DNA of 64,000 bases, taken from assembly GCF_032118995.1 (NCBI RefSeq), contig NC_092661.1, forward strand, positions 2,172,501 through 2,236,500, in the 5' to 3' direction. The position numbers and the translations under genes were made by a program. This DNA comes from Asterias amurensis. Taxonomy: Eukaryota; Echinodermata; Asteroidea; Forcipulatida; Asteriidae. Positions 2,136-55,436 of the stretch are shown here, piece after piece. Each line of letters begins with the position of its first letter. Position 1 is the first letter of the stretch. The notes under the pieces are model-generated. The model had not been told where the DNA came from and searched no databases. It saw only the letters and a list, made by a program, of their open reading frames with translations.

Positions 2136-5100
2136 TCAAGGGGCCTCACCGCCGATGGGTACCAAGTCTGCCTGGTGTTGCTCCACCCTGTTTAGAAGCT
2201 GCGCCGCCACGGGGCAGAATTCCGTCCGCCAGTTTGACCTCATGAAGTCCATGGTCTCAGGGTCCCAGTCCACTCCCTCTGGAGCCTCCATTGCCGTGTC
2301 TTCATCTGGATAGAAAAATATTTCAAACAAATACATTTTAAATTATATGATACTATAATGAGTAGGGTAGATGGCCTTAGCTTTCGATCCAAACCGGACC
2401 TTCTTCTGTTAATTATATTATATTCTTAAATTATATATTATATATTATGATCCTGTTTTATTCTTCAATTGTCTATTGTTAGTTGCATTCTAATGCAACT
2501 TGCTCTCTAATCCTACCCTTTCGTGTTTCCCTGCATTGTAATACATACAAGGCATTTACTACTTTAAAGCCATTGGACACTTTCGGTAAACAGTATTGTC
2601 CAAGGCCCACACTTCGTGTGTAACAACTTATATATAAAATAACAAACCTGTGAAAATTTGGGCTAAATAGCACTTTTTATAGAGAGGTTTTTTTGTAAAT
2701 TTCAATTTCTCTTTGTGTTTCTTTGTTTTGCTGTCCTTTTATAACAACATTCCTGGTATAAAGATGTCATTTTGCCCGGTCCCATCGACCTTGTTATAAC
2801 GAGAGTTGACTGTAATCCTTTGCTCCTGTTTTTACTGAAAATGGATATGTTTTTTGTTTGGGCTTGTTTATGCCTCTGAAGAAAGTCCGGTTTGGATCGA
2901 AAGCTAAGGCCATCTACCCTACTCATTTTCACACATGTAGTGGCTTCTTATAGCGCTAAAATCCATCACCAATCATGTATCATATTTCAAAGCTTATCAT
3001 GGCCCCAAAAATACTTCAAAAATCTCACCAAGAAAATCTGCCAGTTTATCAATGAGGTTTCCTGCTTCCTGCTCCCCGAAGCACTCGACGGAGTTTGTGA
3101 TGTTTTCGCTGTAGTTCCATAACATCTTACAGACCATGCTGGCAAGCTGCCAATCCGATCGGCCAAAGTCAACCAAAACATCCGTTAATCTGGAGAGGGG
3201 GGGGGGTGGGAGAACAAGTTTGTTAAAAGAGCAATAAAATTGTTTTACTTGGATGCGATATTGAAATCTAGAGCCCGATACATGTTAAAGCACCACCGAG
3301 GCAGCTCCAATTGACGCCAAACGTCTTCACATTCAACCTTGGCGCCACTCACAATATTGAAATCTAGAGCCTGATACATGTTAATGCACCACCAAGGCAG
3401 CTCCAATTGACGCCAAACGTCTTCACATTCAACCTTGGCGCCACTCACAATATTGAAATCTAGAGCCTGATACATGTTAATGCGCCACCAAGCCAGCTCC
3501 AATTGACGCCAGACGTCTTCACATTCAAACTTTGCGCCACTCACGGGAAACCACACGTACTCTGGACAAGCACTATTAAATGAACCCCTCCCCCCCCCTC
3601 CCCCGCAATTTTTGAAGCATTACTTCTTTAATATACCAGCTTCAAAATTCATTTGTGCAACTTATTTTTGTGCATACATTTTCGTCTTTGTATCTGATTG
3701 TATTTAAAAGAAATTCAATCTGCATCAGGGATAAAGAAAATTAATTAGGTTTTACCCTAACATTGAGGTGTGTTAGCACTGTATACTCAGTACTTTCCCA
3801 AGTTCTGAGAAAAAGTAAATTAATTAATATCTCCTGTTAGGCCCGCTTGCTCCTGCATCTCTCCTGCGCCAGGAGTGTCTTTTAGACAGACATGGTGCAA
3901 TAGATGTTAAATTTGCATCGGGGATAAAGAATATATATATATTTTTTTTTTACCCATACACCGATGTGTGTTAGCACTGTATACTCAGTACTTTCCCAGA
4001 GTCCTGTGAAAAAAATATCACAGGCATATAACTCGTGTGGGATTCGAACCCACGACCCTTGCAATTCTAGAGCAGTGTCTTACCAACTAGACTACCGAGG
4101 TTGCCCGGTATCTCGAGGCAGTTCCAAACCTATGTTTTGGCAGTTCGAATCCTATGTTTTGGCAGTTCGAATCCTATGTTTTGGCAGTTTGAATCCTATG
4201 TTTTGGCAGTTTGAATCCTATGTTTTGGCAGTTCGAATCCTATGTTTTGGCAGTTCGAATCCTATGTTTTGGCAGTTCGAATCCTATGTTTTGGCAGTTT
4301 GAATCCTATGTTTTGGCAGTTTGAATCCTATGTTTTGGCAGTTCGAATCCTATGTTTCGGCAGACATGGTGCATTACAAATGGCCCTGTTTGTTATAACT
4401 ACGTCAGTGAATGCTCCTAACCATTTTTAGAGCTCTTACTTTTTGATTCCGCCCTCCTTTTTGAGTACCGGCCTCCTGTGCTCATCTGCCATCATATTAA
4501 TGAGCACCCCACACGCAGTGTACACGATCTCCATGTTACCTGCATCCAGTAACGTCACCATCATCTCATCCACTGTAATAATAAAATGAATTATTCATGA
4601 GGCTGGAATGCCTGGCTGTAATTGGTTGAACAATGGTAATCTGATTTGCTTGATTACCTACTGTTGGTTAGTACATCAGAGACCTTATTTGCATATTGAT
4701 GCCACATGGATCTTCAGCCTCCAGTGAGGTTACCATCATCTCATCCATTATTCATGAAGAGTTTGGAATGCCTGGCTGTAATTGGTTGATGGATGATCAG
4801 CTGATATGCATAATAACTTAATATTGGTAAATATGTCAGAGACCTTATTTGCATATTGATGCCACATGTTGCAAGAAGCTTGCCAGCTCTTGTAGTCTGT
4901 TTTTAAGCTGGTAGTTGCCAGATTTTAAGCTAAATCTACTGAAATAAATCTGTATTTTTAAACCACTTCAGTCGTAAAGCAAGGGCTCATCTTTGCAACC
5001 GACAACTTGTGAAATAAAAAAAGGATGTTGGCTTTTGTAGCCCACTGCATAAATTTTGTGTTTACACAAGGCTGTTTCACTTCTCCTGTTTTGACTCTTC

Positions 5101-8100
5101 AAAAACACAGCCCTAACCAAATACTGACACAGGACGAGAATTACAAGAAGTATGAGTAGATTTACCCTTTTTAGATGTCAAGAAATCTCTGACTTCAACA
5201 GTGCGGGAAAGATTGCCAAAAACTCTAGACGCTTCTATCATGGCTTCCATGTTATCGTTCATCAGTAACTTCAGCACAACTGCATAAAGAGATATAATAA
5301 CAGTAGTAACTAGTTTTTATATAAGGGATTTGAGGCATTGTATGGTGAGGTATCAATTTGATTTGCAGTAACACCTTGCGTGTATCTACTTGCCAGGTAG
5401 ATTTTGTTGTGTAGAGAACTGTCATGCTTTATATTCTACTACAGCGGAGCAGGTTTCTTCCGATTTCGGGAGACTTGTCAGTTCTGAAAAGAACAGTCCT
5501 GCTTTTTAAACTACCTGGGCAAAAGGGAGAAAACTGGCCGGGAGTACTACTCAAGCTTTTTTACTTCACAACCCTGGAGTGCGTTCTTAATTGGTCTCAA
5601 GGTTTCGAAAAAAACATTTCACTTACACTAGACAAAGTGCCCTGTATTAGAGCAGTAAGACAATGCTCTAAAATTGCAAAAGTCATGGGTTAAAATCAAA
5701 CCCAAGTAATAATTATGTATGTGATTTTTTCACAGAGCTCGGAAAAGTACAGTGTATACAGTGCTAAGACACAACGTTGTATAAGGGTAAAACCATAACT
5801 AACATAATAACTAATACAAATTTGGGGGGCTAACCGTCCTTACTCGCAGCTAAGAGCTGAATTGTGAAGGACGCAGCTACAACGTGTTCGAGAAGCACGC
5901 ATGCAAGGGCGCATTCAGCTGCCAGCCACATCAACCCATTATGACCACGGAGCACAGCCAAGATTGAAAGTGGTTTTTTTTTTCCTGAGGGAGGAAAACC
6001 GGAGAGTCTGGAAAACCCTCGTGGCACAGCAGAGAACCAACGCACAACTCAACTCACATATGGCCCCGACCGGGAATCGAACCGGGGTCACCTTCGTGAG
6101 AGGCGAGCCCTTTACGCACAAGCCAACCGTGCCACCAGATCTCAAAATCGTTTCACATTTTGCAAAATAAAAAGTACCAAACAAAAAAATACTCACGTCT
6201 GGAAATTTCTGCTTGTCTCTCCACAATACAGCTCCCGATGACGTCATAAAACGATAGATTATTGATTGTGATTACTGTGTTCAAAACTAACTCCTCGCTG
6301 GTACGAATGTCTTTATATTCTGTTTCAAAAGAAATATTAAATTAAGCAAAAATAAAAATTAGAGACAGGCTTCAATGTCAATTTCAGTTTTGTGATTGAC
6401 TAATTTAAATAATAATACTAATAACAAATTCTTATATAGCGCATTTCACAATAACCGTATCAATGCGTTTTACATTAGTGCCCTGGTCATAGGGCCAATA
6501 ACATTCCTGTAATGTTTCTCAGCTCCCTTGGGAGTATACAGCCCTGAGCTGCCTGTAAGGCGCATGTGGCTTTTCATACACAATATCAACCTCTACCCTC
6601 GCAGGTACCCATTTATACCCCAGCATGGCTCTAAAACATTTCTCACCGAGTATCTGCATAAGTTGATCCACGCAGTTCTCATTTGATGCGATAAGCGGCC
6701 CGATGTCTTGGTTGATAGAGAGATTGGCAATGACTCTAATCAACTTAATCAAGACGTCTTCAACGAGACTTGCTGAGTTCTCATACTCGACATCCCCATC
6801 TGGAGACTTGGCCGGCTCCGCAGAATCAGATTTTGATTTCTGGAATATGAAAATAGTTTCGTTGATAATGATAATTAAAGACACTGGACACTATTGGTAA
6901 TTGTCAAAGACTAGCCTTCACATTTGGTGTATCTCCATGGCAACACCATGGCAAACACCTCAGCTAACCGCAGCTCCTTTCAGGACAAGTATAACTGTGG
7001 CGTGTCATGGCCGAGCAGTTAAGAGCACCGGATTCAAGCTCTGCTGTTTGATCAGCAGAGTGTGGGTTCGAATCTCGGTCGTGACACTTGCTACATAAAA
7101 TTGGGGAGGCAGTACTTTCTGCTCTACCGGCCAGGCTTCGGACTGACAGATACCCAAGCCTACATCTGTATGGACTGTAAAAGGGGTAACCCTGTTTCAG
7201 CCCTAGGAGTAGGTGGCATAGGCCTCTGGACAAAAAAAATTGTAGCCAACACCTAGAAGTGGCCTTCAGGCCTTGTGTGTCTGGCGACTTGCATAAAAAT
7301 TTTTAAAAAAAACTGTGTTCTTTTCATGCATTACACAGCGCAAAATGTTTTATACCTCTCAAAGATGACATTCCATCGCTGAGTGCTAATCACATTTCTC
7401 CACAAACAAAAGCTCAAACTTTTACCTGTAAACTTTTAACAAAGTGATGTCGTAGAACATTCAAGATGACTTCCATGGCGTTCTCGGCGTTGAACAAACA
7501 ATATCTGAAGTCGTCGTTCTTGGCCGTAAGATTCCCTAGGGCAAAGCTCAACCTGACGACTGTATAACTCTGGTCTTGGTATCGACTGAGTAGAGCCAAG
7601 ATAGACTGAAACGCTGTTGGGTACTCGCCTAAGACCGTGCAACACTCATGGTTGAGAGTCAGTTTACTGTTGAGCCAAAAATCAAAACAAATTTTACAAA
7701 AAAGGGTTTTGATACCTTTTGTAAATCAAGTTTTGGGCCATGACATGAATCTTTACTTACAGGCAGTGGCGAGCTAGTGGTAATTATCTTTCTTGGTTAC
7801 AAGTAACGGGGAGAGGTTGATAGTATAAAACATTGTGAGAAACAGCTCCCTCTGAAGTGACGTAGTTTTCGAGAAAGAAGTAATTTTCCACGAATTTGAT
7901 TTAGAGACCTCAGATTTAGGTTTTGAGGTCTTGAAATCGAGCATCTGAAAGCACACAACCTCGTGTTACAAGGGTGTTTTTTCTTTCATTAATATCACGC
8001 AACTTCGACGACCGATTGAGCTCAAATTTTCACAGGTTTGTTATTTTATGCATATGTTGAGATACACCAACTGTGAAGGCTAGTCTTCGACAATTACCAA

Positions 8101-11100
8101 TAGTGTCCACTGCCTTTAAGGTAAATGAAGCTGTTAGTAATATAATTTACACGTGTTGATATTCTTTTCATATCTTAGATGTAGAAAACACAGGCCATTC
8201 CAACAGCTTTATTCCACGTACTGCATCTCTTTGGAACTCCTTGCCTGGTGCATGTTTCCTTCCATCCTACAATCTAGACTGTTTTTAGAGGAATATCAAT
8301 TCCTACCTTCAGCTCCCCTGAGTTCTTTTCTCAATAAATATTCTTTCTTCCTGTAGCCCCATGCCAAGAGTGGCTTTTAGCCTCAATTGGAGCGAACTTG
8401 CATAAAAAAAAAATAATAATAAAAAATCACAAAATCACAAAATACCTGAATATTCTAGCGATGTGCATCATGGTCTCGGAGTCGCTCGGGTACAGGTCCA
8501 TGGAGCGACAAATCTCCGGAATGGCTTCATGGGAAATGAAGAGCGCGTAATGATCCTTGTGGTCCACGAAGTTACGCATTGTTGCGATGAGCTGGAGCAT
8601 GATCCCTGCTGACCCCTTGGCTAGCTTGCCGCCGTGAGAGTTCTGTTTTAATAATAATAATACTGAAGTCTTATATAGCGCACGTATCTACCAAACAAGG
8701 TACTCAAGGCGCTGAGTATATACAAACTTTCAGAAAGAAAGGTTATTACAGTGAGACCCAATTACTTAGCACCTTATAAGGGTTTACATGGTGCTGTGGC
8801 GCATTAAGCAGCCACAGCCAGGAACACCGGGGTGAACCCCTTCTCTTTTCGATAAGTGCACTGGGTTCTTTTACATGCGTTACACAACACATGGGACCAA
8901 CGGCTTTCTGTCCCATCCGAAGGACGAAGCAATGGTCAAGCGTCTTGCTTAAGGACACAAGTCTCACGGCTGGGGATTCGAACCCACACTCCGCTGATCA
9001 GAAACACCCAAGTTTGTTTTGAAGAGAGAAAATGATTGCGATAGAAACAAGAACAATGGCAGTGGGCCTTGGTCTTCCCCTATAGTGTAGAGGTGGAAGC
9101 CCCATGAACCATGATTCTGCTGGGTGTTACATTTCATTAGAATAACAGAACTTGGGCTGGAAAACACACCAAACATCGTGGCCGAGCGATCTAGTTCAAC
9201 GCACCCAAGCTCTGGTGCCGTCAGCAGCAGAGTGTGGTTTCGATTTCCCCACATGACACTTGTGCCCTTGAGCAAGGCACTTAACCATAATTGCTTCGGT
9301 AAAAGTTGGGAGGGTAGTGCATTCTGCTCTACCAGCCAGGCTCATAGTGGATGATACCCATGCCTACATCCTCATGGACTGTGAAGGGGGTAACCCTGTT
9401 TCAGCCCAGGGAGTAGGTGGCTCCTAGTGGATGATACCAATTCCTACATCCTTACAGACTGTGAACTGGGTAACCCTATTTCAGCCCTAGGAGTAGGTGG
9501 CTCCTAGTGGATGATACCCATACCCACATCCTTCTGGACAGTGAAGTGGGCAACCCTGTTTCAGCCCTAGGAGTAGGTGGCTCCTAGTGGATGATACCCA
9601 TGGCTACATCCTTAGGGACTGTGAAGGGGGTAACCCTGTTTCAGCCCCAGGAGTAGGTGGCTCCTAGTGGATGATACCCATGGCTACATCCTTAGGGACT
9701 GTGAACAGGGTAACCCTGTTTCAGCCTCAGGAGTAGATGGCATTGTGCCTCCTGGTGCCAGTGAATCTCTCACCTTGAAGTGGCTGTCCATAAGCCTTTT
9801 TGAGGTATGGCAGACACAATAGGAGTGCACTGTTTAGTTTGGGTGTATTGACCCATTTCACCTGACGTCATCATCAGAAAAATCTTGAATGCGCCATACT
9901 GGTGGGGAATTTCACTGTGCGTTTTCATATATAACTCTAGGCATAGAGTATGCTGTGCGTTATGCAGTGAAGTGCGCATTTTAGGCGACGCGGCGTTAAT
10001 ACACAAAAACCTAACTGCCCACCAGCATGGTGAGCGTGGCATCAGTCGCCGCATGTGGCGCGCGTGCAAGGAGTCAATACAGACAAGTATATTCAAACCT
10101 AATAGTGTTGTAGCATTGTGTACGCCGTATGACAAAAAGGCTTATGGCCTTGTGATACCGGTTGATCTCTTGTAAAACAAAAATTGTAAATTTGTTTTTA
10201 TAAATCTTTACTTACCGCTTCATTGACTGACTTCATAATCCTCATGACATGCTCGATGGTTCCAAGTTGGACAAAGCGTTCCAGAACCTTGTAGTGGTTC
10301 TGAGTCAGGAACCTGACGGAACCAACGAGGTAGACTAGAAGCTCATGGGACTGCGTCTTGAAGTCTAGATCGCTCATTAGAGCAACGATTAAATCTGCAG
10401 AGAAAGTAGAGAAGAAAAGAAGTTACAAAAAGGTCAAACCTTTCTTTTGGGTAATGGGTATGTTATAACAATATAAGCCTAGATTTGGTTGTGCCCTACT
10501 CTAAGACCGTAAAATGTTTTTGAATTACTCGCTCTAATACCACATTCCTTTGAAGGGAGTTGATTCTCCAAATGTATAAATTATCAACAGCTGCAGTGAT
10601 TCTTATCACGTAAAATGTTGTGGTCATTAAGTTTTTGAGTAACACCAAAGGTTTACAGTCCCTTGATTTGGTTACATCATCCTATGCCAGTTTAAAAGGA
10701 CCTTTGTGAAAGATAAAGTTGTGACCAAAGTAAAATATAAGAAGTCAGGTTTGAACTCTTCAAACTATTATTTCTTTGATTTATTTTTGCAATTTTCTAC
10801 AGATTAAATTGTATGACAAACTAGTTTGTCGACTTCCACTATCTTGAGGAGTTAATGTCACCTGTCCACCCTCAAGCGATACAATATTTGTATATTTATG
10901 CTTTTATTATTAAAATATATCACTGGCAACCTTACTTACCCATAATGTTGTGTTCCATAAATAGCAGATCATTGTTGTTGTCCTTGCTAACTTTCAAGAT
11001 GAGTTTACTCAAAGTGTTCAAGTTACTTCCATTTACACCAAGCTGAAAAAGAAACCAATAAACAAATATATATATTGGAAAGCATTGCCTCCAAAACACT

Positions 11101-23681: not shown

Positions 23682-24903
23682 GTTTGATGGCCTAAGTCAT
23701 AAATTGTACAAAACATGTTATTTTTTAGAGACTTTTTAGAGATTGCATTACAGGAAATCTTCATTAAGAAAAGAGGCCAGAATAAAAACATTCTTTTCAT
23801 CTGGCAACTCACACCTGTTATCTCCATGTATTTTCTTTTCCAACGATGGACGCACCAGTAGGGCTGCCGACTGCCCCGGACATATTAAATGCTCATCTGT
23901 TGGGTTTGATGACCCAAGTAATTACACCGGCACCTTCCCATGCTTTAATAAATCTGATGAAACAAAACAATGTATTCTTTTGTAAATTCTGTTATTGTCA
24001 GTCATTAGGGTGAAACTGTTTGTCATGCGTATGAGCGCAGCGAAGGAGCATGAAACCAAGTAGTTACAGTGTAAACACACCCACTCATTGAAAGGGATGT
24101 ACTTTCTGAGATTTGTGGCCAAACCCGCATAAACTTGCAATACCCGCGACTAACCCGGGGAGGGTTATACAACAATGATAACATACAGACCTGATACATC
24201 AGGGAGGCAACAATGCCTCCGTGCCCCCTTGTCATTGACTTGGTGCCCTTGAAATGCTCCAGTAGGAATTAACAATTTCCTCATAGGGTGCCCTTTACCA
24301 AGGAGAAAATCCCATGGTGCCCTTGCCCTTTCAGAAACGAAGCATACAGGCCTGAAAATAACATTAATAAATAAACGGCTAAGTAAACATGGTAACATGA
24401 AAACATCAATAAATAAATAACAATATACTGAAAAAGTTTTGTTTACTCTTGCACTCGATTAAAAAGTGTATTTCATTATCAACATCCTGTTCACAGTGTG
24501 GGCATATTTCTCTATGCTGTTATATTTACCAATGTCAATGATAGATAACTCCATATCTTCATTATAGGCACAGTGGACATTATTGGTAATTACTCAAAAT
24601 AATGGTTAAAAACTGCCCCCAACCTGTCCCCCCCCCCCCCCCCCCCGCGACAAAAACATGGTGTAATACCGTTGATTTTGCTAGGCGAAGATCAAAGAGC
24701 ATTGAGGATACGTATTATTACATTTAATAGAGGTTTACAAATTGTTTCCATCAAGTTAAGAGGTGCATTGTGCACCCTTTCATTGTGAAGAAGGTGGGGA
24801 AATAGATAAGTTTCAATTGTTTTATTAGATCAAGTACAATTTCGTAGCCATGCCTGATATAAAAAGTTGGGAAAAAATTAAAAAGGCGAAAAAGACAGCT
24901 TAT
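23682..24903. other. UTP11-tRNA intergenic region with repeat fragments
   Basis: No gene is seen. At 24170-24360 there is an interspersed repeat ending 'acaggcctg' that recurs at 27525-27650 and 60487-60668. A family 1 MITE end lies at about 24567-24602. A C run of about 21 lies near 24627. UTP11 3'UTR should occupy the start; several AATAAA hexamers occur but none is clearly the site used. Confidence 0.5.
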
Positions 24904-24975
24904 TGACCCAGACGTGATTTGAACACGCAGCCTTCTGATCTGGAGTCAGACGCGCTACCGTTGCGCCACTGAGTC
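24904..24975 (-). tRNA. tRNA-Trp (anticodon CCA)
   Basis: On the minus strand the 72-nt gene starts GACTCAGTGGCGCAACGG and has an anticodon loop around CTCCAGA with anticodon CCA. The T arm is GTTCAAATC. The acceptor arms GACTCAG/CTGGGTC pair over seven positions (one G-T wobble), and the discriminator is A. The body closely matches animal tRNA-Trp. It carries A and B boxes and no intron. Unlike the SINE heads nearby, it forms a full cloverleaf. Confidence 0.95.
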
Positions 24976-25224
24976 ATGCTTGCAAGAAAAGGAATAGCAA
25001 ATTATTTATAGTCAATTATAATAAGATGGTGCCGTACAAAGCAAGCTAATTTAAATTAAAAGTTATTAATAGCCATTTAATATATCATTTCAAATTATTA
25101 TGTTATCATATCCATATCCCCGGCGTACTTAAGTACGTTTTTTTGACGAATTCAGAGAGGACTTAGAATTGACCCGGAAGTACAACTCGGGGCTAATTTG
25201 ACCTCAAGTAGGGAAACCCGGCAC

Positions 25225-25242
25225 ATGGTCTTTTCGACTGCC
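25225..25242 (+). promoter_or_regulatory. RPL13A: Putative 5'TOP start of RPL13A
   Basis: 'ggtcttttcgactgcc' precedes the ATG at 25243. A start at the C at about 25230 would give a ~13-nt leader beginning with an oligopyrimidine run, as expected for ribosomal protein mRNAs under mTOR-linked translational control. It is inferred from sequence only. Confidence 0.6.
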
Positions 25243-28200
25243 ATGTCAAGCTTTCACAAGGTCTGTACCGCTGAGTGCCGTTAATTTTTCAGTTTTACTC
25301 GATTTTCTCAGCTCAAATTCACGAATTTTAGTTCATATGTAGTACAACATTACCTAGTGTTTAATATTATTGCATTATTATTTGTGATGTGTTTTAAAAA
25401 TTGACTAAAGCGACCGTTTTAAAATTCGATTTTGTGGTCGGAAATTCGTGAATGCGAAAACCTGCAGCTGAGGGCGCTGTACTCTGTGTAGTGCAATGGT
25501 GTACATTTTTAGTAGGCCTCCCTAATTTTGTCCAGCGTGTCATAAAAAACAGTAATATTTACACAAGTTTACCTACTTGATTAATTACCAGAAATAAACC
25601 CTAACTTAAGTGTAGAGCCTTGAGGCTTGACCTTTGGCTTTTGTCTTTTAACTTAATGAAAAATTTAAAAAGTTGTACTTTATTTTATTTATTTCACTTT
25701 CGAGTTTCATTTGCAAATTCCAGAATCCAATCAAAAAATAGATGCAATGTAAAATGTTTTATTCTTTGCAATCCAATCTTTGTCATGAGTTCAGCAATTT
25801 TTCATCATAAAAAATTGCTTGACATGCTGGACATACTGGAGGAGGGACAGATGATGGAATGCCGTACAGTAATTTCTTTTTTAAATTGACTGCCCTGCTG
25901 CTGGAAGTTTTGGGAAAAATCACAAATACGTTTTGGGAAAATCAAAATCAAATGGAAATTCTTTTATTATATTTTTGACTTTGAGAGTGGATTTCAAAAT
26001 TTCATTTTGTTGTCAGGTTTGTATTTATTTATTAACGTATTTTCAGTTTGCTAATTTTTTACAGTTGTTGAGAAGTCGTTCAAACACTGTGCACACGTTC
26101 GCATAAAAATTGGTTTACTTAATTGCTTTCCATGTTTTTAGCACCAGTCCAAACATGTGGTTTATAGGCTTGAATTTGGTAATCTTACTGTCCGAACTTC
26201 GGTTCCCCTTGGTTGATCTGCATTTGTTAAAGACAATGTTTCTATGACTTAAGGAGAGCTCTGATCTGACTGTCTTGTCTGTGATGATAAAATGACCACG
26301 CTTAATCGAGGCATTTATAATGCAATGAGATTATCAATCACATGCACTACCATCTGAGACGAAATGCAAAAGACGTCAACTCTCTGTGAAATTTGAAACA
26401 GGCATGATATTCTTCCTAGTTTGATTTGTTTTCTGACGTGATATACGTTTCCCTTCCTTGGAATTGAACAAAACAAAAATTCCTTAAAAAAAATTATTCA
26501 GGGTATTTACCACATGAAGGTTGGCCCTTAAATTTGTTTATAGGCCCTATATTTCCTTTGAAGGACCAAATATCATACATGTTCTTTTTGCAATAATTGT
26601 AACCATCCTTCCTCCTGACAGTTGCAGTCCGGAGGTTTACAACACAGTCGGGGTGGTGTGAATTTTTACAATTTTTGTCAAATAAGTGACCAGATTTGCC
26701 CACATTAAAAGAGCCTGATAAATCAAGTGGCACAAAACAAATGTAAATCAAGCTGTTTTTCCCCCCTTTTTATAAAAAAAAAACAACTTCTAGGCAACAA
26801 CCTGGGGCATGGAGGCAATCGCCTTTGATGTCTCCATGAATTGTCTGGCCAGCTGTAAACTTAAAGATTTTGGAGTGTGAGCGCAAAACAAAAATGGTCT
26901 TGCCCTCTCTAAGTGAGATATCATGCCTCCTAAGCTCCTGCGTGGTTGGAGTGACCTTTATTAATGAAATCTTTCTTTCTCTGTTACAGACATTACTAAT
27001 AGATGGGAAGGGTCACCTTCAGGGCCGCTTGGCCTCGTTGGTGGCCAAGAACCTTCTTCAAGGTGAGTTGAACTCTTCTTGTTCTTTTAAAGCCGTGTTG
27101 ACTTACTTTGGGTAAACTAACCCAGCAAATGGGTATAAACTTCACCATTTTAAGTCCAGTGCGCACAGCCCAGAAAGTTGTCCTCCAAGATACTTAACCC
27201 GACCCGAATGGGTAGTTTAATCACAAAGTTTTTTGCAACTTCGATGACCATATTAGGCTCAAATTTTTACAGATTAGTTATTTTATGCATGTTGGGATAC
27301 ACCAAGTGTTGTGCAATATCCGTCAGTGATGATAACATGACCACGCTTTTTCGAGGCATTATATTGCAATGAGATTACAACTCAACATGCACTACCATCT
27401 GAGACAGAAATTGGAGCCGAAAATGCTTAAATGTTGGGATTCACCGAGTGAGAAAACTGGTCTTTGACAATAATATCAAAGGTTCAGTGCCTTTAGAGCA
27501 AAGTGTTCTGAATGCTTTGTTTTGAAAGGGAAAGGACACCAAGGCATGTTCTCCTTGGTAAAGGGCACCCTAGATGCGGAAATTATAAATTCCTACTGTA
27601 GCATTTCAAGGGGCACAGAGGTGATCACCTTTGTTGCTTCTGTTGAGTATCAGACATGAGAAACTAACAACTTACAGGCTAAGATTGGGTGCATGACATT
27701 TTCAATTATTTCTCTGTTTGTAGGTCAAAAGATTGTCATTGTTCGATGTGAAGGAATCGACATCTCCGGTAGCTTCTACCGAAACAAATGTAAGTTATCA
27801 AATCAATCAACATTTTCTTTTATTTTTGCCGCAACATAATTACCTCAGTCCAAATCTTGAGAAAAATCAAGTGTTTATCAGTAAGGCATAACTCATTGTC
27901 AATGATGAAGTTTACATCTTAACCTACATTGTTTGATCTTATGTGAGAAAAAAACACTGTTAACTGAGACAATGGGTTTGCAGATATAAACGTAGGGTGC
28001 AATTTTATGGAGCTGCTTGAACACAAAGGTTTTGCCTTGCAACTTTCTGCTCAGCAAATGTAAGATCTAAGATGGAAACCAGTGAGGCAAAGCATTCTAC
28101 TTGCGATTTGGTATAACTGGTATCCTTGATTTGGTAAGCAAAATTTCTTAGTGCTTTTGCTCCTTTTTTAAGCTTAAGCAGCTCTATGAAATTTGGGACG

Positions 28201-31200
28201 CCTCAGAATAATATAGAGGATGCAATTTTTTTTGTACCTCATCTTGAAAAGCTTCCCTACTTCACTTGAAATACAGACCAGTGAAAAAGCTGATGGACTC
28301 TTTACATATTAAGCTACTTGGTCCTGCTGGCCAGTCACTTACTGTTTAGGGCAATCCTTGATTAGTATTGTATAGATTTAAATCCTACTTTTGTTGTTAT
28401 TTTATAGTGAAGTACCTGCAGTTTCTGCGCAAGAGAACCAACACCAAGCCTAGCCGTGGTCCCTACCATCTTAGGTCACCCAGCCGTATCTTCTGGAGGG
28501 TTGTCAGAGGTAAGGTCTCTTACGTCCACGTACTTAATTATTTGGTCCTCGAAACATTTGTACTTATGTAAAAAATACCAAATGGTTTCTAGAAATATAA
28601 TCCAAGGGTAGATTTCACAAAGAGTTTAGACTTGTCTTATCTCAAGTTGGGGCGAGTTACTCATCCTATAAAATTTAGGACTTGTCTTAAGTTTTTAATA
28701 TCTCCTAGGACTATTTCAAGTTAGGACTATTCTTAACTCTTTGTGAAATCGACCCAAGGTTTTTTAACATAATTTTGGTTTTGAAGAAACTGAACTACAC
28801 TCCCTGGCGTGTTCAGGGCAAATTTTTGTGAGTGTTTTTCTGAGTAGCCCAGCTGGGCCTAATCTTTCTGTTCTGCTAAAGGCAGAATTCAGCACCTTAC
28901 AGTACCATTTTGGGCTTTAAAAAAATTATCGCAGAATTTCTGCACAAGCGTTGTAGCCAATTGGCCAGGGTATTATTAAAAGGTTAACTATGCAGGACAC
29001 CCGAGTGTGGTTCAATATCTGTCAGTGATGATAACATGACCACGCTTTTTCGAGGCATTATATTGCAATGAGAATACAACTCAACATGCACTACCATCTG
29101 AGACAGAAATTGGACCATAAAAAAGAAAAACAAACCTGCCAGCTCTCCCAGACTCCGCAAAAAGTTCCCTCAGAGTAGACAAGTGTTTCCATGTTCTGAT
29201 GAACAAATGTAAAAAAAAAAATCCCTGATTGTGGAAACTCGGTTTTTTTGTTAGTTTAATGTAATTCTAATTGTTTTCTTGTCTTCTTGATTGGTGTACA
29301 AAATCTCCCTGACTGCAAGATGCAAATGTCTGCTGCTACATAAAACTGTCCCAAACAGAAGGGTTAGAAGTGCACGCAAAATAACCCAGCGGAAGAGTGG
29401 GGCTTAATCTGGTGTTTCTCATTCAGATAGTAAGCACAGGTTTCCTCAGGCTTGTGAGCTACAGTGATTAAGTTCACTTCTTAGGCATCCTTGGTTTCAT
29501 TACTAGACATAATGAAACTAGTTCTGCTATGTTAAATTTATTAACTACATCTAAATCTTTTGTTGCCCCTGTATTCCTGTAGGCATGTTGCCACACAAGC
29601 GTGCAAGAGGCAAGGATGCCCTAAGCAGACTGAAGGTCTTCGAGGGAGTCCCACCTCCATACGACAAGGTATAGTTTTTTTTTAAATCAGCGATGTCAGT
29701 AAACTTACATGTCAGACACTGCTTGTTGCACCCCCCCCCCTCCCCGACTTGCTCGTAGGGCTTGTCACTTGTATGTTCTGACTGACTCATAAAAATTTGC
29801 CTTGCGTTTATGTTGTTACTTGTGATAGATTCATGTTAACCTGTTTCACACAAGCAGTATGCAAAATTTTGCCTTGCCTGCCCGGCTGCCCATGAAGCAA
29901 GCTTGACTGCCCCGGAGTGCTCTTGGCACTGTTGCCGTTATCAGTCAGTACGAAGTGTGTGTTCTCGATGCCAATGATGTACAACTTTCACTTAACCTAC
30001 ATTGTTTGAGTTTCCGTGAGAAGAAAAACCAAATCTGAGGCTCGGTGCACACACACACTCATGAAATCCTTCACTCAAAACGTTATTATGCTGAGTACCT
30101 TTTGAAACAATTAGAAAAATTACTTCCAAAGCTACGGTCAGTTTGTATGAAGTGAGTACAGCTTCACAACATCTGACAACTGTAAGCCAACAATGCTCTG
30201 CATTTTAACCGGAAATCATCACGGGAAAATTTGTCTACTGTCGTTTCTTAGAACCTTTGTGCTGTTCAGGCCCATTTGTTGTTCGTGTTCGTGTTCGATG
30301 ATGTCGCATTTGAAATTACACTGTGAAAGAGTTAACATTTTATAGGATTTTATTGTGATACTGTAATTGTTGCCCCACTTTCATGAGGGCTCTATCTACG
30401 GGGGAAAATAAGTGCATCGCAAAACTGATTGTTAGCTTTGAGCCCCTTCTTTTGTGTTTAGTTTGTTTAATTCTTGGGCAGATTATGTCATATTTAGTAT
30501 GGAAAATGTTGGGTATTACAGTATAAGTAACATAATTATTATTATTAGTAGTAGTAGTAGTAGTAGTAGGAGTAGAAAATCTTACATGGTGTACATAATT
30601 TGCCCCCCACTTTTATGAGGGGCTCTATCTATTTGAAAATGAGTGCATCACAAAACAACATTTTGACCTTGACGCCCTCTCTTTACTGTTTGTTTAATTC
30701 TCAGGCTGATTTGATAATTTTCAACAGAAAATGCTATAACACTAAAAGTAATTATTAGTGGTAGCAGTAAAGATTCTTATGTAATGGATTATTAATGACA
30801 TATACATTAATACACTTTTCTTTCCTAGTTTCTACATGAGCTTCCTTCTAAAGGTTTTGTATTTCATGTTTTAAACCTGCATTTCAACATTTTTCTTCTC
30901 TTAAAATTTTACAGAAAAAGAAGTTTGTTGCTCCACCAGCACTCCGGTCAGTGCGGCTAAAGCAAAACAGAAAGGTACGTCTTGTCGAAGACTCCGAGTA
31001 AAGGTCTATAGAAAGAGAGATTAATCTGGGATTGGGGAGGGAGCAGAGAGATGAATGGTTAGCCTAGCTACATTGTCTATGATGATATCTTGACCACGCT
31101 TATTCGAGGCATTTTAATGCAATGAGATTATCAATCACATGCACTACCATCTGAGACGAATACTGGTTACCTTTTCATTCATCTTTTAAAATAAGGTGGT

Positions 31201-33045
31201 GGGGGGGATACATATCCACAGAGCCTTGAATACTAGTTTGTAAAACCGACGCTATGTGTTGCGTAAGAGTTTTGCCGGTTATTGTGGTCTCTAAAGTGAA
31301 CTGGGCCCACTTTGATGGCTCTGCAAACCGCTGAACTCTGCGCTTGCGATCAACATTCTCCGCTTGCACGGCAGGCGTTGAATTTCTGCGCTGCGGCTAG
31401 CCTTGTAAGTGAAAAATGCCTAGTTGCGTGGAGTATGCACACGCACAAGCCAAAATTCCCTGCTGACTCGAAAAGTATGCCTTACTAAGCGTAGAGTTCC
31501 TTGCTTCCGTAAGCGCAAATTCTTTGTTGCGTAAGCAAGGCTATAAAGTTGGGCCTTATTTAAAACAATTGTTTTTCTTAAAAGAGTCTTGATTTATATT
31601 ACGATATTAATTGAGTACTTCTGGGTATTGATTTAAAGAAAATCTAACCATGGTGTCTGAGTTTGAAATATTATGAATATTCTCTTCTCTTTGTCGTTGA
31701 TAGTTCTGCAATCTCGGACGTCTAGCCCATGAGGTTGGATGGAAATACAAGGAGATCATCGAGACCCTTGAGGAGAAGAGAAAGGCCAGGTCTTGGGAGC
31801 GCTGGAAGGTCAAGAGAACTGGGCTGGTAAGAGACAACATCTTGCTTAGAATTAATTCATGGAGTTATGGCACTCTAATTTTGCTGAGCTGTTCTCAGCT
31901 CTTTTGTTTGATTGAGTAAGCACCTTTATCAAACTGGGCCTAGGGTCGAGCTGGATTTCACAAAGACTGGAGACTAGTCAATGGTCATATCTCGATTTAG
32001 GACAGGTACTTGAATCTAGGACAAGCCTGAGGTTTAAAAACACTTGGGTTTAGCCCTAAGTTAGGACTATCTTTGTGAAATCGACCTCTGGACTGGCAGA
32101 AATTCTGTTTTCTTGCCCAACCTTCATTGGCTACATGCCGACCTCCCCCCAGAGGCCAAGTTGTATATCTGCTTCTCATCAGAGCTTGTAGTTTGGTTTC
32201 AGTAAAGGTTGTTTGTTGTACTTTTTTGTCTATGATGATATCTTGACCACGCTTAATCGAGGCATTTAAATGCAATGAGATTATCAATCACATGCACTAC
32301 CATCTGAGACGAACAATAGTACACCAATCTGTGAAAACAAATGAGGAATAATCAAACCAACACTGGCTCAATGATTAAACCCCTGAAGGTCGACCTTGCG
32401 TCAACAAAAAACACTCGGCGACTGACTTTTCAGGATCACATGCAGGAACAGTGTGATCCTGAAAAGTCAGTCGCCGAATGGAAACCCCATGTTTATTATA
32501 CTGTGGTTTGGTGGCAATGGCCAGTTGAGCAGGAGTGTATACCGGTAGTAATAGGGGTTAAAGGGGTTAAAGGCAAGTGGTAGCACAGGGGTCGAAATAA
32601 AGTGTATTTCCATGGTAGTCAGCAGGGCTAGTGACCAATAATTTTTAGTAGCCCTGATTAGATTTTGGTAGCCCGAAAGACTTATTATGTCTCGCATCAC
32701 GGCTCAAATTTTACAATACACCAATAACATAGTTCTTTATTGTTTGTGATGATGATTTTTGCATTATTTTTCCACTAGCCCGTCGGGCTATCAAACTGGA
32801 AAAATGAGTAGCCCGGCTGTAAATCTGGTAGTCCCGGGCTAGCGGGCTAGTGGCAATTTCGACCCCTGTAGCAGAGGGTACTCCTTCAGAGGTTATGCAA
32901 CTACTTATTTTTTTGTGACACGCAGTAGTAAATGTTATTTCTATTTTGTCATATTTTGCAGCAACTGCGTCGCAAGGCAGCCAAGAGTGTCAGAGACAAG
33001 GTCGCCCCCTACCAGAAGATCATCCGCCAGTACGGTTACAAGTAA
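25243..33045 (+). CDS. RPL13A: RPL13A, 60S ribosomal protein uL13 (8 exons, snoRNA host)
   Basis: Exons: 25243-25260, 26990-27062, 27724-27789, 28408-28509, 29583-29668, 30915-30974, 31704-31826 and 32962-33045. They total 612 nt, giving 203 aa, exactly the human length. Exon 1 (MSSFHK) is short. It was chosen because it follows an oligopyrimidine tract, ends at a GT, keeps phase and gives the right length, but its donor (GTCTGT) is weak. Diagnostic blocks are [85 protein letters not shown] and [15 protein letters not shown]. The basic C-terminal helix differs from human, as is common. The product is a structural protein of the large subunit. Every intron carries one box C/D snoRNA. Confidence 0.95.
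26276..26362 (+). ncRNA. SNORD33: U33-like box C/D snoRNA, copy a (RPL13A intron 1)
   Basis: Box C GTGATGA is at 26281-26287 and box D CTGA at 26354-26357. A C'-like TGAGATT lies between, and TTGTC/GAC ends can pair. The guide upstream of box D, CACATGCACTACCAT, is the element found in vertebrate U33 (SNORD33), which directs methylation of 18S U1326 in human. Human RPL13A also hosts U33. Confidence 0.88.
27220..27500. mobile_element. Family 1 MITE half, interrupted by snoRNA U33 copy b
   Basis: 'gcaacttcgatgacc', 'ttattttatgcat' and 'gggatacaccaagtg' precede the snoRNA. 'agaaaactggtctttgacaa' and a degenerate CAGTGCCT end follow it. Together they match the right half of family 1 (compare 8005-8119). 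The left half is not recognisable. Confidence 0.65.
27316..27407 (+). ncRNA. SNORD33: U33-like box C/D snoRNA, copy b (RPL13A intron 2)
   Basis: Box C GTGATGA is at 27326-27332 and box D CTGA at 27399-27402, with guide AACATGCACTACCAT. Short end pairing comes from GTC before box C and GAC after box D. It lies inside a MITE and is bracketed by near-identical 19-mers at 27290-27308 and 27432-27450, suggesting retroposition. It is closest to copy c. Confidence 0.85.
27525..27650. repeat. Interspersed repeat fragment
   Basis: 'tctccttggtaaagggcaccc' and 'catttcaaggggcac' match 24240-24340 (inverted) and 60530-60660. It lies in RPL13A intron 2. Confidence 0.5.
27894..27974 (+). ncRNA. SNORD34: U34-like box C/D snoRNA, copy 1 (RPL13A intron 3)
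   Basis: A perfect 7-bp terminal stem, CATTGTC/GACAATG, closes box C ATGATGA (27902-27908) and box D CTGA (27964-27967). The antisense element CTACATTGTTTGA matches vertebrate U34, which guides methylation of 28S rRNA and is likewise hosted by RPL13A in mammals. Confidence 0.9.
27997..28200. mobile_element. MITE-like inverted repeat
   Basis: 'caattttatggagctgctt' at left is answered by 'aagcagctctatgaaatttg' at right. It belongs with the GGGCCC-ended group at 733 and 35500. Confidence 0.5.
28612..28757. mobile_element. MITE with ATTTCACAAAGAG ends
   Basis: 'agatttcacaaagagtttag' at left is answered by 'ttaactctttgtgaaatcgac' at right. The interior is a run of 'taggacttgtctta'-type inverted motifs. 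It lies in RPL13A intron 4. Confidence 0.65.
29015..29106 (+). ncRNA. SNORD33: U33-like box C/D snoRNA, copy c (RPL13A intron 4)
   Basis: Box C GTGATGA is at 29025-29031 and box D CTGA at 29098-29101, with the guide as in copy b. The match to copy b extends into both flanks ('caatat' before, 'gacagaaattgga' after), so the two are recent relatives. Confidence 0.87.
29966..30045 (+). ncRNA. SNORD34: U34-like box C/D snoRNA, copy 2 (RPL13A intron 5)
   Basis: Box C ATGATGT is at 29974-29980, with a final T as also seen in human U34. Box D CTGA is at 30035-30038. It shares AACCTACATTGTTTGA with copy 1. The terminal stem is short (GCC/GGC), weaker than copy 1. Confidence 0.83.
30535..30571. repeat. 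(ATT)n(AGT)n microsatellite
   Basis: 'attattattatt' passes into a run of 'agtagtagt' in RPL13A intron 5. Confidence 0.85.
31074..31160 (+). ncRNA. SNORD33: U33-like box C/D snoRNA, copy d (RPL13A intron 6)
   Basis: Box C ATGATGA is at 31079-31085, box D CTGA at 31151-31154, with guide CACATGCACTACCAT. GTC/GAC closes the end. It is nearly identical to copy e, including 'tcttgaccacgctta'. Confidence 0.88.
31949..32090. mobile_element. MITE with ATTTCACAAAGA ends
   Basis: 'ggatttcacaaagactgg' at left is answered by 'atctttgtgaaatcgacc' at right, with 'taggac' motifs between. It lies in RPL13A intron 7, upstream of snoRNA copy e. Confidence 0.65.
32227..32313 (+). ncRNA. SNORD33: U33-like box C/D snoRNA, copy e (RPL13A intron 7)
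   Basis: Box C ATGATGA is at 32232-32238 and box D CTGA at 32304-32307. The guide and C' region are as in copies a and d. Confidence 0.88.
32415..32477. ncRNA. Perfect 26-bp hairpin in RPL13A intron 7
   Basis: The arms 32415-32440 and 32452-32477 are exact reverse complements, separated by an 11-base loop (tgcaggaacag). The 63-nt foldback is the size of a pre-miRNA but has no bulges. It could be a small-RNA precursor or simply a young inverted duplication; sequence alone does not decide. Confidence 0.5.
32586..32868. mobile_element. 283-bp MITE with CAGGGGTCGAAA termini
   Basis: It starts CAGGGGTCGAAATA and ends TTTCGACCCCTG. The direct repeat TAGCA flanks both sides (32581-32585 and 32869-32873). 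The body is rich in 'tagcccg' inverted motifs. The ends resemble hAT-type MITEs (inference). Confidence 0.75.
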
Positions 33046-33305
33046 ACTAAACGCTTCAACAGAGCAGTTACTATGGCAATCGGCCTCTTTGATACACACT
33101 GAAACGTGCGCAGTCTTCAGAGGAGCTCTACAATCTATACAGAAAACTAATACGTCCAACCGGACAATTTGGTTGGCGTCGCGTTTACAGTTTTCATCCA
33201 AAACCAGGACATACTTGAAAAGATAAGAGAACATTGTCTGAATGTGTCGATAAAGCAGTCAGCAAGATTATAGTACAATTTTTGTTTATAAAAAAGCTGA
33301 AGTAC

Positions 33306-53199: not shown

Positions 53200-54620
53200 T
53201 GAAAAAAGATGCAAAATAGATTTAACTTATTAAGTGATTTATTTCATATGGTTTCTTATGAAGAACATTACCCCAAAAATATTTAGGTTCACCATTTTAT
53301 TTAAGGAAAGAAACAAAAACAAATCAGTGTAAAGGGTTTGCCACCCAAGTTGCAACCTGTGGGTAAACTCTGGTCAATTATGAAATTGTTTGAAAGAAAA
53401 ATGCAGGACTTTGTTTTAAATAAAAGGTGGTTTATCATTTGGTAAATTTTGTAAAAAAAAGCAACCCCCAAAGTTCTTTGTTTGTACTCTTTATTTTGTT
53501 TCAGAGGTTTTATCCCTCTGAAAACAGCAAAATTTACTGACAATGGGTTCGCCACCCGTAGGGAAACCTCTGGCCAATTTTCTAACTGTGTTTATTTGAA
53601 AAATTTACCACTTTATTTTAAAAGGCGATTTTTTTTAATCTTTTGGTAATTTTTTGAAAATTACCCTCCCCAAAAATATTTGGTTAAAAGTAGTTTTGTT
53701 TTATTTCAGAGGGTTATATTTAATTTTTAAGCAGAGCAAAATTCAGTGATATGGGTTCGCCACCCGTAGGATAACCTCTGGCCAATTTTCTAACTGTTTA
53801 GTTGAAAAAAATTCTACCACTGTTTCATGTTTACCTCTTAAGACATGTAAGCAAAATTCAGTGATATGGGTTTGCCATCCGTAGGGAAACCCCAGGCCAA
53901 TTTTTTAACTGTTAATTGAAAAAAAATGCGCCACTTCATATTGGGTGATTTATCATTTGGTAAGTTTCGAAAAACAAGCCCCCAAACATTTGGTTTTATA
54001 TTTTTAACACTGGAAACAGAAGAGCAAAAACTCAGTGACCATGGGAGACCCCTGGCCAATTTTTTTAACAGTGTTTGATTGAAAATTGCGCCACTTCAAA
54101 TTAATTTGAAAAATAACGTAAACCCCTCAAATATTTTAATGTACAAATAGGTTTGTTTTATTTCAGAGGTTTTATATTTTACCTGTGAACAGAAGGAGCA
54201 AAAATCAGTGACAAAGGGTTCGCCACCCGTAAGGAAACCCCTGGTCAATTTTTTTTACAGTGTTTGATTGAAAATTGCGCCACTTCAAATTTCAAAAATA
54301 ACAGAAACCCCCCCAAAAATGTGGACGTTTTATTTCAGCGGTTTTATATTTTACCTGTGAAAACAGCAAAAATCAGTTACAAAGGGTTCGCCACCCGTAA
54401 GGAAACCCCTGGTCAATTTTTTTTACAGTGTTTGATTGAAAATTGCGCCACTTCAAATTTCAAAAATAACAGAAACCCCCCCAAAAATGTGGACGTTTTA
54501 TTTCAGCGGTTTTATATTTTACCTGTGAAAACAACAAAAATCAGTTACAAAGGGTTCGCGCCTGTAAGGAAGCCCCTGGCCAATTTCTTTCAAATGTTTG
54601 GGGAAAAAAAGCAAACATTA
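53200..54620. repeat. Intronic satellite, ~110-210-bp units
   Basis: 'gggttcgccacccgtaagg' plus 'aaacccctggccaatttt' recurs near 53335, 53545, 53755, 53865, 54215, 54380 and 54550. 'attgcgccacttcaaatt' and 'ttatttcagaggttttatat' fill the rest. The last two units are nearly identical 166-bp copies. It fills the intron between exons 2 and 3 of the POLR1H copy. Confidence 0.85.
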
Positions 54621-55436
54621 TTTGTTGATGTATCAAAATCCTTACCTCGGATGGATTCATCGCTACTGTGACAGGGTTTTGCTTTTTCTGTTTTCTCAGC
54701 AAGTAGAACTAGTAGACATATTTTGCTGAAACTTTCACTGTTTTATTTTATCTTTCTTTGTTTTGTCAATTAATCATTGACATAAAAAACAACTTATGGC
54801 CTTACCTTTTAGGCGTATTATCAGATTTACTTTTTCAATGCTTGGTTATTTTTCATCACTTCTTAACTGCATTTTTGTATCTGGTCTGGTTTCAGATTGA
54901 CAAGCCATGTGCCAAGTGCTGTCACGATGGGCTTCATTTCCACACCAGGCAAACGTGATCAGCTGATGAAGGACAAACCGTCATCTATTTCTGCCCATTA
55001 TGCAAGTAAGTTAATCACTTCTTAATTCATACTTGGTTCATACTTCCTGCAAATGCAAAGTGAATTTTGGCTACACAGCCCTGTTTTCTTAGCGCATGTT
55101 TCGAAGGGGTTGAACACAGTTCGACTGTTGCGAGTTATTAATTGCGAGTTCATGACAACAAAATTTGCTTCGCATTCGCAGGAAGTATGAACCGGGCTTT
55201 AGGGCTGTAGACCCTTTTAGGCAGTTTCCATAGATTTATTATAGATTTATTTAGCGTGGTCACTACATATTTGGCTGCACAGGCAGTTTATTCTCGGGGG
55301 AGCTGAGTTGGTTTGATGAACGGGTAACACTGTTGCAGAGCCACGAGCGTCACTGAATGACGGATTTCAGTGCTATATAAAAGTTAGTACAAGCAGAAAT
55401 TCACTGTTCATATGACATGTATGTAAATCGTCGGTG

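Follow-up and report, generated by a model that had tools for sequence, protein, structure and literature searches.

The window analysed here, a stretch of 64 kb on contig 14 of the Asterias amurensis genome (491,506,623 bases in 23 contigs, all of which were searched), contains the ribosomal protein gene RPL13A, whose coding exons join to 612 nt including the stop codon and encode, in an intact frame, a product that matches Pfam Ribosomal_L13 with an E value of 1.3e-22 (Table 1). An earlier note on this DNA had claimed that every RPL13A intron carries exactly one box C/D snoRNA, in the order U33, U33, U34, U33, U34, U33, U33, and this is the arrangement that Rfam returns. At the gathering threshold, nine matches were found in the whole window, two of them tRNAs, five SNORD33 and two SNORD34, with one snoRNA in each intron and in that order. 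All five SNORD33 matches (RF00133) exceed the cutoff of 44 bits with scores of 57.1-64.6, and both SNORD34 matches (RF00147; 49.5 and 44.2 bits) exceed theirs of 38.

Boxes C and D are present in all seven units, with box D reading CTGA throughout and box C of the intron-5 SNORD34 copy reading ATGATGT. A permissive Rfam scan of positions 24900-33300 (E value up to 5) gave 26 matches, of which the weak snoRNA ones fell only at the same seven places, and it included neither a U35 nor an H/ACA snoRNA. A purpose-written C/D scan of limited sensitivity recovered five of the seven units and no extra ones; it missed those in introns 2 and 5, the same two in which the terminal stem beside the boxes falls below the 4 bp or more seen in the other five. 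That the cluster is an artefact of assembly error or of chance motif matches is extremely improbable: we found no point in its favour, the U33 copies differ from one another (82.0-97.8% identity) and occupy different introns, and all seven units score 44-65 bits.

Table 1 Features of the RPL13A locus (positions in the window).
Feature	Position	Strand	Details
RPL13A coding region	25243-33045	+	8 coding exons; 203 aa; open frame, GT..AG introns
RPL13A coding exons 1-4	25243-25260, 26990-27062, 27724-27789, 28408-28509	+	
RPL13A coding exons 5-8	29583-29668, 30915-30974, 31704-31826, 32962-33045	+	
RPL13A introns 1-4	25261-26989, 27063-27723, 27790-28407, 28510-29582	+	GT..AG
RPL13A introns 5-7	29669-30914, 30975-31703, 31827-32961	+	GT..AG
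SNORD33, intron 1	26274-26363	+	D box 26354-26357; RF00133 57.1 bits; 13-bp 18S pairing
SNORD33, intron 2	27319-27408	+	D box 27399-27402; RF00133 60.0 bits; 13-bp 18S pairing
SNORD34, intron 3	27894-27974	+	D' guide and box within 27918-27936; RF00147 49.5 bits; 28S pairing
SNORD33, intron 4	29018-29107	+	D box 29098-29101; RF00133 64.6 bits; 13-bp 18S pairing; extended outer stem
SNORD34, intron 5	29966-30045	+	D' guide and box within 29991-30009; RF00147 44.2 bits; 28S pairing
SNORD33, intron 6	31072-31160	+	D box 31151-31154; RF00133 60.8 bits; 13-bp 18S pairing
SNORD33, intron 7	32225-32313	+	D box 32304-32307; RF00133 61.2 bits; 13-bp 18S pairing
Left direct repeat, intron 2	27285-27308	+	24 nt; end of the interrupted element's left part
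Insert holding U33, intron 2	27309-27422	+	114 nt; interrupts dispersed genomic repeat
Right direct repeat, intron 2	27423-27450	+	28 nt; belongs to dispersed repeat
Flank of intron-4 U33 like the intron-2 left flank	28989-29017	+	local alignment; includes part of left direct repeat

Several other features lie in or around the gene. Just upstream of RPL13A and on the opposite strand there is a good tRNA-Trp (CCA) gene (24903-24976, minus strand); the second tRNA match, at 4029-4101 (minus strand), resembles tRNA-Ser (AGA) but is poorer, several of its pairs being broken. Related inverted-repeat elements with TTTCACAAAGA ends in common occupy 28599-28762 in intron 4 and 31954-32092 in intron 7, and intron 7 also holds a near-perfect inverted repeat with 29-nt arms and an 11-nt loop (32412-32480), which we considered as a microRNA precursor and rejected, as it is a multi-copy foldback element with 75 matching pieces including the window's own. 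Farther along the window, an open frame at 54264-54671 has a translation with an internal direct repeat of about 42 residues.

Guides, rRNA targets and constraint

RF00133 takes in both U32 and U33, so the assignment of the five copies to U33 rests on their D guide. We compared the guides with a single rDNA unit on contig 12, located by an exact 28S motif (L014, whose numbering we use for rRNA positions). This unit has a full 18S (1740 bits with the Rfam model), whereas its 28S is matched in two pieces that reach model position 2341 of 3401, and the 28S assembly may be incomplete on its 3' side, with the stretch at 6824-9901 possibly interrupted or misassembled; 42 28S and 22 18S annotations are given for this species in an account of the genome (PMC10625585).

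The D guides of all five U33 copies form a 13-nt pairing with the starfish's own 18S, 11 of the pairs being Watson-Crick, and in each copy the fifth nucleotide from box D faces the U at L014:2541, which lies in the context GTGG-U-GGUGCAUGG and is the equivalent of U1326. Both U34 D' guides form an 11-nt pairing with the own 28S (12 counting one more base), and their fifth nucleotide, taking TTGA as box D', faces the U at L014:6812 in the context ACAA-U-GUAGG, the equivalent of U2824, the known U34 target site. Um1326 is assigned to U33 in a table of PMC3511168. Complementarity to the own rRNA at these two sites had been predicted in the earlier note, and it is there in all five U33 and both U34 copies. 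The score of the U33 guides (12.0) is equalled by the best of 300 shuffled guides and that of the U34 guides (11-12) is below the best of 300 (13.0); since shuffled guides reach similar scores, the evidence for the targets is the agreement with known sites in seven of seven units.

We also weighed whether the five RF00133 copies could be SNORD32 and rejected this. U32 directs its D' guide to 28S A1511 and its D guide to 18S G1328. The D guides found here lie at U1326, not G1328, and although the starfish 28S contains the A1511 motif, in none of the five copies did this site come up as either of the two top-scoring D' matches listed for each rRNA. A search for U32 elsewhere in the genome gave one match to a G1328-type guide pattern, rejected because the 110 nt before it contain no C box; the reversed control also gave one. 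In all five U33 copies a block of 11 nt ahead of the D'-like box (for example 31091-31101) is invariant, and we examined it for a second target; the best matches (9.0-9.5, against a shuffled mean of 8.7 and a shuffled best of 12.5) include no convincing rRNA site, and the top one, at L014:4218, falls between the 5.8S match (ending at 3875) and the 28S match (starting at 4563).

The U33 copies fall into two groups, one in introns 1, 6 and 7 (93.3-96.6% identical) and one in introns 2 and 4 (97.8% identical), with 82.0-84.3% identity between them. In the five-copy alignment 21 of 91 columns vary, none of them among the 23 columns of the C core, guide and D box, compared with 21 of the 68 elsewhere (Fisher p 0.0012); adding D' and C' makes this 0 of 32 against 21 of 59 (p 3.8e-5). 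The invariant core columns match what retained function would predict. Covariation in the terminal stem was tried as proof of function and set aside; among these five related sequences it speaks neither way, 232 of 500 shuffles being as good.

Taken with the boxes, guides, target pairing and single unit per intron, all of which are read directly from the DNA, this leads us to regard the locus as very probably a functional intronic box C/D snoRNA cluster that has expanded by duplication within its own host gene. We infer from these features that the snoRNAs are expressed, that they are processed with snoRNP proteins and direct methylation, and that their guides are under selection. On splicing of the RPL13A pre-mRNA each intron would release one snoRNA, and the five redundant SNORD33 RNAs would direct 2'-O-methylation to the 18S counterpart of human U1326 and the two SNORD34 RNAs to the 28S counterpart of human U2824.

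The position of the units in their introns bears on how efficiently this may happen. Between each of the seven and the 3' splice site of its intron lie 315-869 nt, and no unit is close to the mammalian optimum for intronic snoRNAs, which is given as some 50 nt ahead of the branch point (PMC8162545). Such a position could be offset by an extended outer stem, for which introns 4 and 6 offer the best evidence. In intron 4, none of 500 shuffles was as strong at 25 nt and 10 of 500 were at 40 nt, as were 10 of 275 places in the same intron at 25 nt; the corresponding values for intron 6 are 7 of 500, 63 of 500 and 13 of 247. For intron 5 only 3 of 277 same-intron places were as strong, yet 73 of 500 shuffles were, and in intron 2 no outer stem was seen (406 of 500 shuffles as strong at 25 nt). 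Outer stems were not accepted as a general rule, as the combined z (-3.7 at 25 nt, -2.6 at 40 nt) comes mostly from introns 4 and 6. It may be that some of the seven copies are processed inefficiently and are kept by drift with no benefit in dosage. The distance from the mammalian optimum and one broken pair in the terminal stem of the intron-2 copy would fit this, as would the drift of snoRNA location and copy number proposed in PMC3511168, but we consider it somewhat unlikely given that each copy keeps its boxes and guide and that no core column varies among the five U33.

An insertion in intron 2 and its link to intron 4

The U33 of intron 2 sits inside a dispersed genomic repeat. The interrupted element starts at about 27216 and runs on to about 27471, and it is split by an insert in which the 90-nt snoRNA unit is preceded by 10 nt and followed by 14 nt, with a short A-run at the 3' end. 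Direct repeats border the insert, the left one lacking 4 nt that are present in the right copy and in three repeat copies fetched from elsewhere; over their 20-nt core (27289-27308 and 27431-27450) they are identical at 18 of 20 positions, which none of 500 shuffles equalled. The repeat has matches on contigs 2, 3, 6, 10, 14 and 20, and in the three fetched copies the element is continuous across the insertion site. Removing the insert and one direct repeat raises the alignment to these copies from 92-110 to 131-153 and lets it span the junction.

The insertion, like the boxes and guides, is visible in the DNA itself, and the intron-2 U33 is best read as a discrete insertion into an older repeat, with the target site doubled. 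Because the repeat becomes continuous once the insert is removed, the snoRNA would be younger than the element in which it lies, and as an insertion into a repeat it is presumably not the unmoved ortholog of the U32A found in intron 2 of vertebrates. None of the other six units has flanking direct repeats beyond chance: in introns 1, 4, 6 and 7 and at both U34 copies, 208 to 496 of 500 shuffles were as good.

The copies in introns 2 and 4 share more than the snoRNA. An anchored alignment of their upstream flanks scores 28, with none of 2161 control positions as good, and that of their downstream flanks scores 18, with 3 of 2161 as good; for the part within the direct repeat alone, 3 of 6642 control positions were as good. 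As raw scores on this scale, the other pairs reach no more than 6 for the upstream flank and 13 for the downstream one, in each case with introns 1 and 7, and the anchored alignment found no flank sharing between intron 6 and introns 1, 2, 4 or 7, or between the U34 introns 3 and 5. The homology we claim for intron 4 is limited to the roughly 30 nt adjoining the snoRNA; the possibility that its upstream region is a longer copy of the repeat element was rejected, as the left-arm alignments do poorly against shuffles, 22 to 114 of 500 being equally good.

These flanks indicate that the two copies are linked by copying at the DNA level that carried along part of the direct repeat. Of the amplification and intron-to-intron spreading proposed in the earlier note, amplification thus stands, and spreading finds support at least in this pair, through the insertion and the common flanks; the lineage specificity and dosage effect also suggested there are conjectural. 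The two U33 units differ at two positions, split one each when compared with the other three copies. Since the repeat is continuous only in intron 2, the simplest order would be an insertion in intron 2 followed by a copy to intron 4; the reverse, a template switch from intron 4 to intron 2, is conceivable because intron 4 retains the better outer stem and is also the site of U33 in mammals.

Origin of the copies within one host gene

No SNORD33 or SNORD34 was found outside RPL13A among the matches listed for the 491-Mb genome, for which the best 59 of 63332 and the best 68 of 92940 candidates were scored, so that the copy numbers are minima. Searching the genome at the DNA level with the intron-2 unit gave 12 matches, namely the same five U33 places and seven pieces of the repeat. 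That only five U33 and two U34 are among the genome matches listed favours duplication confined to the gene, and we consider it most likely that the copies arose in this way: the intron-2 copy would have arrived as a 114-nt insert, the snoRNA with its short extensions, in a resident repeat whose target site was doubled, and introns 2 and 4 would have been joined by DNA-level copying that took some flank along.

The same evidence can be set against ordinary retroposition, in which snoRNA precursors would be reverse transcribed by LINE-type machinery and inserted at random, with survival only in RPL13A introns. The long direct repeats and A-run of the intron-2 insert are as expected from such a process, an A-rich run follows close behind the intron-4 copy (29119-29130), and the copies in introns 1, 6 and 7 are alike mainly over the snoRNA, apart from the weak downstream likeness of 1 and 7. 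Retroposition is nevertheless quite unlikely, given that no dispersed U33 is among the matches listed elsewhere in the 491 Mb (E value up to 0.001) and that the units other than that in intron 2 have no direct repeats beyond chance.

Copying at the DNA level alone is a serious possibility, if somewhat short of probable. Template switching or ectopic gene conversion between RPL13A introns, with the copying strand returning 28 bp upstream of its point of departure, could leave an apparent target-site duplication; it would explain why introns 2 and 4 have flanks in common, including part of the direct repeat, and why all U33 and U34 matches listed are in one gene, and human C/D families lie mostly within one host gene, which is ascribed to recombination (PMC8178906). 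It would, however, need two switches at what appears to be weak microhomology, and no flank sharing was found for intron 6 with any other U33 intron or between the two U34 introns, a lack that decay could account for.

A further reading, which we regard as unlikely, is that U33 spreads by a gene-confined process templated by RNA, in which precursor snoRNA or intron lariat RNA from the locus is copied where neighbouring introns break, with target-site duplications as the trace, so that the introns of one highly transcribed gene would be recolonised repeatedly. If this were true, equal intron positions across phyla, such as U32A in mammals and U33 in starfish in intron 2, would be convergent and not inherited.

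Duplication within the gene, the reading we prefer, places the starfish locus beside known clusters. In mammals, U34 lies in intron 5 of RPL13A. U32a, U33 and U35a are described from mammalian introns 2, 4 and 6 (PMC11308251), so that U33 in intron 4 is common to mammals and starfish, and the mammalian gene is reported to hold four different snoRNAs (PMC6667457). The starfish cluster is like the mammalian one (U32A, U33, U34, U35A) in its host gene and in the U33 and U34 families, but differs in having only U33 (five copies) and U34 (two), with every intron filled and U35 elsewhere.

Intragenic (cis) duplication of snoRNAs is described for host genes of chicken, platypus and human (PMC2653536, PMC8178906), and the starfish copies resemble these in that one family occupies several introns with its guide kept and the rest diverged; they differ in that one of them is an insertion into a recognisable repeat, at a target site that is now doubled. 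In sponges, an H/ACA snoRNA is reported as duplicated in neighbouring RPL13A introns (PMC3412847), a case with the same host gene and duplication to a neighbouring intron, but of another class and family and with two copies. A filled, redundant cluster is therefore of a kind already known from animal ribosomal-protein genes; what is new is that the intron-2 copy is an insertion into a repeat and is tied to the copy in intron 4. Among the open-access papers listed, judged by titles and abstract openings, we found none on the RPL13A snoRNAs of echinoderms; one of them deals with small-RNA sequencing of sea urchin and sea star (PMC3247247).

With the insertion and the 2/4 link, cis-duplication is no longer just a pattern but an event that can be tested. 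Multiplication within one host gene has been ascribed to recombination largely since the copies share a gene (PMC8178906), whereas the intron-2 copy interrupts a repeat that has uninterrupted counterparts elsewhere in the genome, which means that related starfish can be used to test its arrival, its order and its source. The locus also illustrates that when a snoRNA family recurs in the matching intron of a given gene, common ancestry need not be the reason, in agreement with the independent snoRNA gains argued for in PMC3511168.

Other snoRNA families in the genome

The earlier note had reported U32- and U35-like copies as missing and set this against the mammalian cluster. Within RPL13A the observation holds for U35, which the permissive scan did not find, but it does not extend to the genome, and reading the contrast as a loss of U35 fails: contig 10 carries at least five SNORD35 copies, each in minus orientation, scattered across about 0.8 Mb. 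They lie at 1073131 (L015), at 1564285 (L016) and within 1840536-1842956 (L017), the last being a stretch of 2.4 kb with three copies. One SNORD35 copy lies between two pieces that match both ends of a DnaJ domain, one piece being below the Pfam cutoff. RPS11 was tried as a U35 host and rejected, as it gave matches at chance level only (E value 0.33 or worse). The flanks of some SNORD35 copies look alike by eye.

Among the matches listed for SNORD36, three copies lie between exon matches of RPL7A and one is on contig 8, and one copy of SNORD24 is listed in the genome. RPL7A with SNORD36 is thus likewise a multi-copy case in the same starfish genome, with another host and another family. RPL13A is the fullest multi-copy case seen and not a lone one, two of the three other families examined (SNORD35 and SNORD36, not SNORD24) being multi-copy as well.
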